From an uncultured Pseudokineococcus sp. (GTDB lineage Bacteria; Actinomycetota; Actinomycetes; Actinomycetales; Quadrisphaeraceae): a stretch of 64,000 nt of DNA. The number at the start of each line of letters is the position of its first letter. Position 1 is the stretch's first letter. The stretch is from NCBI RefSeq assembly GCF_947495735.1, contig NZ_CANMAA010000001.1, forward strand, positions 558,001-622,000, in the 5' to 3' direction. The notes beneath the pieces are model-generated. The model did not search any database and had not been told where the DNA came from. It saw nothing but the letters and a program-made list of their open reading frames with translations. Positions 1,142-4,173 of this stretch are shown piece by piece. The position numbers were made by a program, and so were the translations under genes.

Positions 1142-1882
1142 TCAGGGCTCGCGCCCGGCGAGCGTGCCCTCGAGCGACGTCACGGCGAAGCGGGCGAAGA
1201 GCTCCTCGGCGTACCAGTCCTCCCGCGGCGTCCGCTCGACGACGGCGCGGTGGGGCGCTCGGCCGTGCGCGAAGGCCGTCAGCGCGGCGCTGTCGCGCCA
1301 CAGGCTCACGGTGCCCTGCAGGCCCACGGGCGCCTCGCCGACGCCGATCGCCATCCGCAGGCCGTCCACCGCCGAGAGGTCGTCCGAGACCGGTGGCACG
1401 GCGCGGGTGAAGGTGCGCCACGAGCCCAGCCGCACGCGGGCCCGGGTGATGCTCACGACGGGCGCGTCCGCCGGGGGACGGCGCGGGGGCGGGTCGCCGA
1501 AGGGCGCGAGGCCGCCCCAGCGCCCGCGGCTGGCGACCGGCGTCATGGCCAGGCGGAGCCGCTCCTGCGCCAGGCGGCCCCACGCGCGGGCGGTCGCCGA
1601 GCGCTCGAACCAGGCGGCGTCGCCGGGGGAGTCCCAGGCGGCCAGGAGCCCCCAGTGCAGGGGGTCGGCGTCGCGCGCGGTGAAGGTGCGCCCCGACCCG
1701 GTGCCGAGCAGCTTCGTCCACCGGGCGCCGCTGCGGCGCAGCAGGGCGCGGTCCAGCGCCATCCGCCCGAGCGCGGCGGGGACCGCGGCCGGGCCCACCC
1801 CCCAGACGTGGAGCGTGACGAGCGCCGGGACGTCGTCCCGCGCTCCCGCTGCTCCGCCCACGGGGCGAGGGTAGGCGGACAC
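1142..1882 (-). CDS. Spheroidene monooxygenase-like (CrtA family) protein
   Basis: 246 residues. The pattern is that of CrtA-type monooxygenases: an N-terminal strand ([10 protein letters not shown]), a central [18 protein letters not shown] block, [12 protein letters not shown], and a C-terminal [14 protein letters not shown]. CrtA enzymes introduce keto groups into acyclic carotenoids. Position directly upstream of a CruF-like gene supports a carotenoid role, but the substrate is not determinable. The GTG start at 1882 has a GGAGGGG purine tract just upstream, so translation is by ribosome-binding site. It is probably the first visible gene of the carotenoid unit. Confidence 0.7.
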
Positions 1883-1942: not shown

Positions 1943-2614
1943 TCAGCGAGCGGGCCCCTCGGCGGGTGCGCCCGCCCCGTGGAGGACGACGGTGCCGCCG
2001 CTCGCCTCGACGGCCTGCAGCGTCCGCAGCTCCAGCAGCCCCGGGGAGCCGGCGACCAGCCGGGCCGCGTTGGCGAGCGCCCGCGTGGCGGCCACCTCCG
2101 CGCGCGCCCGCTCGAGGGAGGCCAGGCCGAGCGCGCGCGCGGTCACCGCCTCGGCGGCCGCCTGGCGGACCTCCGCCGGCGCCGAGAGGTCGCGCAGGGC
2201 CGCCCGCCGGCAGACGGCGCCGACCTCGGCCAGGGGGTCGGCGACGAGGGCGCGGACCTCCTCCCCGAGACCGGCGCGCGCGGCGAGGAGGTCGTCGTAC
2301 CCGCGGCTCGTCACGGCGTCCCGCAGGCCGAGCTGGAGGGTCACGTGGACGAGGTCGTCGGCGTCCTGGACCGCCTCGATCCAGCGCTGGGGGTCGACCA
2401 CGGCGACGTCGGCCACGAGGGAGCAGCGCACCGACAGCCCCTCGGCGGTGGCGACCTCCTGCGCGGAGAGCACGACGGAGCGGGGCCGGGTGTCCACGCG
2501 CTCCCACCGCGTGCGCCACCGGGGCCGCCGGTGCGCGCCGGGGCCGAGCACCTCGACGAGGGCGCCGTCGCGGTAGCGCAGCACCCGCTCCCAGCCGTGC
2601 ACGACGACCCGCAC
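1943..2614 (-). CDS. SPFH/band-7 domain protein
   Basis: 223 residues. The N-terminal strand-rich part ([15 protein letters not shown], then [18 protein letters not shown]) followed by a helical part rich in Ala, Arg and Glu ([21 protein letters not shown]) is typical of slipin/stomatin-like band-7 proteins. The usual N-terminal membrane anchor is missing, so this is a short soluble variant or is recruited to membranes otherwise. Members scaffold membrane microdomains; no specific client is suggested. The GTG at 2614 has a GGAGGGCGAGGA tract upstream. It stands alone between the carotenoid unit and the broken Csp gene. Confidence 0.7.
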
Positions 2615-2971: not shown

Positions 2972-3368
2972 TCAGACGAGCGTGTCGAGCAGCGCGCGGC
3001 ACGCCCGGGCGCACGCCCCGCACGCCTCGGCGCACAGCCGGCAGTGCCCGTGGTGGCCGGCGTGGGAGGCGCACTCCTCGCCGCAGGTGGTGGCGGCGGC
3101 GACGGTGGCCAGGAGCAGTGAGCGCACACCTCCGTGACGCGGGTGCTCTGGCGCGAGAGCACGCGGGCGGTCGCCGCGCAGACGTCGGCGCAGCCCAGGT
3201 CCGTGCTGACGCACCGTCTTCTGGGGCGTCGTCGGCCTCGGACAGGCAGGCGACGGCGCCCGCGGTGCAGGCCTGCGAGCAGTCGAGCACGGCCTGGACG
3301 GCGGCCGCGAGCAGGTCCAGCTGCGGTGAGGGGCTGGGGTGGGCGGCCAGGGCGGCGGCGACGGTCAC
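2972..3368 (-). pseudogene. Four-helix copper-storage protein (Csp/DUF326), split by two frameshifts
   Basis: Three adjacent reading frames together spell a complete DUF326/Csp protein. The first begins at GTG 3368 and holds [17 protein letters not shown]. The second holds [13 protein letters not shown]. The third holds [20 protein letters not shown] and ACGACARAC, and ends at 2972. Csp proteins are four-helix bundles whose inward-facing cysteines bind many Cu(I) ions. The Cys/His pattern (CxxxC, CxxEC, HCRxC, CxxC) is retained across all pieces. Each join needs one missing base (near 3220 and near 3133); restoring both gives about 132 residues, the normal family length. It is either a recent pseudogene or two sequencing errors; the intact motifs make error or very recent decay likely. 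Confidence 0.75.
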
Positions 3369-3498: not shown

Positions 3499-4173
3499 AT
3501 GACAGCCACCACGAGCGCCCTGGGCCGCGCGCAGATCGCCGCGATGGTCGACCACACGCTCCTCAAGCCCGAGGCCGCGCCCGCGGACGTCGCGGCGCTC
3601 GTCGCCGAGGCCCGCGCGCTCGGCGTCCTGGCCGTGTGCGTCTCGCCGTCCGCGCTGCCGCTGGAGGAGACCGGCGACCTCGTCGTCGCCACCGTCTGCG
3701 GCTTCCCCTCGGGCAAGCACGCCAGCGAGGTCAAGGCCGCCGAGGCGGCCCGCGCCGTCGCCGACGGCGCGCACGAGGTCGACATGGTCATCGACGTGGG
3801 CGCGGCCCGCGCGGGGCTGTGGGACGCCGTGCGCGCCGACATCGCTGCGGTGCGCGCCGCGGTGCCGGCGCCGGGCGTCCTCAAGGTCATCATCGAGTCC
3901 GCGGCGCTCGAGGACGACGCCGTCGTCGCGGCCTGCCGGGCGGCGGAGGAGGCGGGCGCCGACTTCGTGAAGACCTCCACCGGCTTCCACCCGAGCGGCG
4001 GGGCCAGCGAGCACGCCGTGCGGCTCATGGCCGAGACGGTCGGCGGGCGCCTCGGCGTCAAGGCCAGCGGCGGCATCCGCACGGCGGAGCAGGCGGCCGC
4101 GATGGTCGCCGCCGGCGCCACGCGGCTCGGGCTCTCGGCCAGCGCCGCGGTGCTCGACGGGACCCCGGCGTGA
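3499..4173 (+). CDS. deoC: Deoxyribose-phosphate aldolase
   Basis: 224 residues, normal for DeoC. The enzyme splits 2-deoxyribose-5-phosphate into acetaldehyde and glyceraldehyde-3-phosphate in deoxynucleoside catabolism. Visible motifs are DHTLLKPEA near the N-terminus, [18 protein letters not shown], the Schiff-base lysine in FVKTSTGF, and the second conserved lysine in VKASGGIR. The ATG at 3499 lies 6 nt after CAGGAT, a leaderless arrangement seen repeatedly in this window. The stop overlaps the GTG of the adenosine deaminase gene, so the two nucleoside-salvage enzymes are translationally coupled. Confidence 0.95.

Follow-up and report, generated by a model that had tools for sequence, protein, structure and literature searches.

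A csp3 gene, encoding a cytosolic copper-storage protein of the DUF326 family and shared with a congener, has very probably been inactivated recently in the lineage that carries the window (the whole stretch of 64,000 nucleotides analysed here), leaving an ordinary pseudogene of a gene that is dispensable in the genus. The pseudogene is an inactivated member of an already known family. The evidence comes from the reading frames of the locus, its similarity to characterized Csp3 proteins, a survey of frame breaks in other genes, the substitution pattern, and the same locus in congeneric genomes.

A csp3 gene in three reading frames

A tblastn search with the intact protein of the congeneric genome G002 recovered exactly three csp3 pieces in the window, in three different frames (Table 1), and a DNA alignment found the window copy to be net two bases shorter than the G002 copy. 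These comparisons bore out the coordinates, strand, copper-storage family and two net one-base losses given in a preliminary description of this DNA. Of the break sites proposed there, the one at 3220 falls within the interval now obtained (about 3217–3230), while the one at 3133 has to be shifted to about 3124–3127; since the flanking bases also differ from G002, the comparison does not place the break bases exactly.

Table 1. Features of the csp3 locus and its neighbours, in window coordinates
Feature	Position	Strand	Description
csp3 pseudogene (DUF326 cytosolic copper-storage protein)	2972..3368	-	GTG start at 3368, TGA stop at 2972
csp3 piece 1	3231..3368	-	first frame; covers the N-terminus and the first Cys motif, with Gly in place of one conserved Cys
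csp3 first frame break	3217..3230	-	net one base short relative to congener G002
csp3 piece 2	3128..3219	-	second frame; middle block
csp3 second frame break	3124..3127 (approximate)	-	net one base short relative to G002
csp3 piece 3	2972..3124	-	third frame; last two helices, which include HAGHHGHC; Thr and Ala in place of two conserved Cys
deoC	3499..4173	+	divergent neighbour, intact; synteny marker with G002 and G003
SPFH/Band 7 gene	1943..2614	-	downstream of csp3, intact; common to G003, absent from the G002 locus
CrtA-like (spheroidene monooxygenase-like) gene	1142..1882	-	intact; synteny marker; score below the curated cut-off

Residues 1–46 of the product lie in the frame of the GTG at 3368, and piece 3 ends in LLDTLV followed by the stop codon. 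The continuous frame of about 110–135 aa typical of Csp3 was thus replaced by three frames, which identifies the locus as a pseudogene of the Csp3 family and not a working member. The AGGA that precedes the csp3 start in G002 is also absent here. Read in the frame of its start codon, the locus runs without a stop for 163 aa, as far as 2877; because stop codons are rarely met off-frame in a genome of 77% G+C, their absence is uninformative on csp3 function. Judged from the sequence, the two net one-base losses would put helices 2–4 out of frame, and a product translated from the GTG would change, after about 46 native residues, to an unrelated sequence rich in Arg and Pro. The Cys-lined four-helix bundle would then be unable to form, and the tetrameric Cu(I)-binding bundle would not be expected from the frameshifted gene. 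We infer that there is no functional csp3 product and that the loss was neutral.

Rescue by programmed frameshifting is extremely improbable: the start-codon frame is open beyond the gene end and the other frames are open over the relevant stretches, but open off-frame stretches are to be expected at 77% G+C. The ribosome would also have to shift twice, at separate sites, neither break shows a classical slippery heptamer on inspection by eye, and intact relatives encode the protein in one frame. Scarcely more credible is a truncated C-terminal product that still binds copper (either the 80-aa ORF at 2972–3214 or the last 48 residues). Piece 3 by itself exceeds the Pfam DUF326 cut-off and retains CGEEC and a stretch that follows it, but a product of this kind would comprise only about two of the four helices, with 7 Cys. 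Two of the replaced conserved Cys fall inside it, and no relative of the short form was seen.

The family assignment is supported by structural homologues. The intact protein of G002, 132 aa long, shows homology to 6Q6B (E 1.6e-36), 5ARM and 5FIG, and the window pieces, joined by X at the junctions for the search only, matched the same set over nearly their full length, with a best E of 4e-24 (6Q6B). We take 6Q6B and 6EK9 to be Csp3 of Streptomyces lividans, 5ARM that of Methylosinus trichosporium and 5FIG that of Bacillus subtilis (organism names partly from PMC10155185). Like these proteins, the window copy retains the HAxHxHC-type motif of the alpha3-loop-alpha4 region of classical Csp3s, present as HAGHHGHC; unlike them, it occupies three frames where they use one and has 13 Cys as opposed to 16–19. 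TAT-exported Csp1 (TIGR04401) is matched weakly over the shared helices, but at 28–47 bits compared to a curated cut-off of 100, and inspection by eye revealed no TAT or Sec signal-like N-terminus on the window copy. A subgroup represented by RkCsp3 lacks three Cys (Cys38, 54 and 111 in MtCsp3 numbering, which are mouth Cys) and the His motif (PMC10155185). The window copy likewise has, by number, three Cys fewer than classical Csp3, but it differs from this subgroup in having the His motif.

Frame breaks, assembly errors and the age of decay

If both breaks were assembly or sequencing errors, the gene would be intact. Several features of the data could produce such errors: the assembly is a draft of 59 contigs, G+C reaches 77%, local hairpins are strong and the first break has a run of CCCC at 3223–3226. 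The codon-position pattern of csp3 also remains coding-like. We consider this explanation alongside a survey of frameshifts in 59 G003 orthologues (66 kb) and 111 G002 genes besides csp3 (123 kb), into which the G002 csp3, missed by the gene caller, was put by hand as the positive control. No further frame break was found in the window genome in either control set. Simulated one-base deletions were detected in 38 of the 59 (G003) and 72 of the 111 (G002) genes, so that the survey overlooks about one in three deletions. With the upper-bound error rate from the survey, the probability is about 1e-4 for two breaks in csp3 and about 1% for a pair of this kind anywhere in the window, making two errors in csp3 improbable. 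A reverse survey, with proteins of the window genome against G002 DNA, gave two frame-break candidates, both of which concern G002. Against an assembly error also stand three replaced conserved Cys, which indel errors do not explain, and the complete loss of csp3 from the corresponding locus of G003, the nearest relative compared. Overall, we regard an intact gene with two errors as unlikely, and real inactivation remains our preferred reading.

The window copy keeps 13 of the 16 Cys of G002, in contrast to the earlier claim that all cysteine motifs are conserved. The residues now replaced by Gly, Thr and Ala are conserved in 15/15, 14/15 and 14/15 classical Csp3-like relatives, respectively, and altered conserved columns number 8 in the window copy versus 3 in G002. 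Substitutions at three conserved Cu(I)-binding Cys point to relaxed constraint. Cys loss alone is no proof of decay, because some distant family members are Cys-poor: two Csp3-family relatives from Pseudonocardiales MAGs (L021 and L024) have only 5–6 Cys and share DCADI and HAGHHGHCR motifs. These two form a non-classical branch that may not store copper. Separately, a csp3-like gene of Pseudoroseicyclus aestuarii (L023:4001-4396) has an in-frame TGA at codon 56, past which homology goes on in frame, and is perhaps an independent csp3 pseudogene.

Differences between the window csp3 and G002 number 20, 13 and 35 at codon positions 1, 2 and 3, and 13 of the 16 differences in the middle piece are at the third position. 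The pN/pS against G002 is 0.46, compared to a median of 0.374 in 98 controls, 22 of which were as high or higher; the first and last pieces gave higher values (0.60 and 0.84) from small numbers. We dropped pN/pS as proof of relaxed selection on csp3, as 0.46 is indistinguishable from the controls. Third-position bias together with a control-range pN/pS suggests that much of the divergence arose under selection, and hence that inactivation came late in the time since the lineage parted from G002. From these substitution patterns the decay looks recent. Of the two options first proposed, very recent decay or two indel errors, recent inactivation is thus supported, while the roughly 110 controls, the Cys replacements and G003 make assembly indels unlikely.

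The csp3 locus and copper handling in the genus

The csp3 site is flanked by deoC (a putative name, given from its sequence), divergently oriented, on one side and the CrtA-like gene on the other in the window genome, G002 and G003. G002, of the same genus, carries its intact csp3 at this locus. G003 keeps the CrtA-like, SPFH and deoC genes at 83–90% DNA identity, but where csp3 would be expected it carries unrelated sequence of about 100 bp, in which no csp3 remnant was recognisable (the best local score equalled the shuffle median). The intact syntenic copy in G002 and the lack of any trace in G003 indicate ordinary recent gene loss, so that the comparison with related genomes called for at the outset favours a pseudogene. 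The comparison fits G003 loss and the window breaks as one event or as two. No Csp match was found in the congener G001, whose assembly is fragmented. Across the order, 11 of 59 searched genomes had a Csp match, suggesting that csp3 is patchy and accessory.

No second DUF326 gene was found in the assembly of the window, so that Csp3 storage is probably gone in this genome; the earlier statement that the strain, if the breaks are real, has lost one cytosolic copper store slightly understates the loss. The window genome and all three congeners have CopA-type Cu(I) ATPases and CsoR-type regulators, and the cells would presumably rely on Cu(I) export by this machinery, not on Csp3 storage. Tentatively, the genus may be discarding Csp3 storage repeatedly, as the gene is intact in one species, frameshifted here and not found in two. 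If so, the genus would be a small natural system for studying when cytosolic copper storage turns dispensable. A series of intact, broken and absent copies in one genus fits the view of Csp3 as an accessory copper buffer, which a lineage can give up and still retain copper export. The main value of the result lies in annotation, with the locus to be labelled a frameshifted csp3 pseudogene.

Two further observations concern the downstream side of csp3. In the window genome, csp3 and the CrtA-like gene are separated by the SPFH/Band 7 gene, which has its counterpart in G003 and whose absence from the G002 locus implies a gain or loss inside the genus. Between this gene and csp3, a stretch of 104 bases (2765–2868) is 96% identical in G003, compared to about 84% for the flanking block, and among 29 genomes was found at the 96% level nowhere besides G003. 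Searches of the interval between the two genes with ARAGORN and Rfam gave no tRNA or other known RNA. The stretch bears a tRNA T-arm-like sequence, GGGTTCGACTCCC, on the minus strand, and may be the remains of a tRNA or else a small conserved element.
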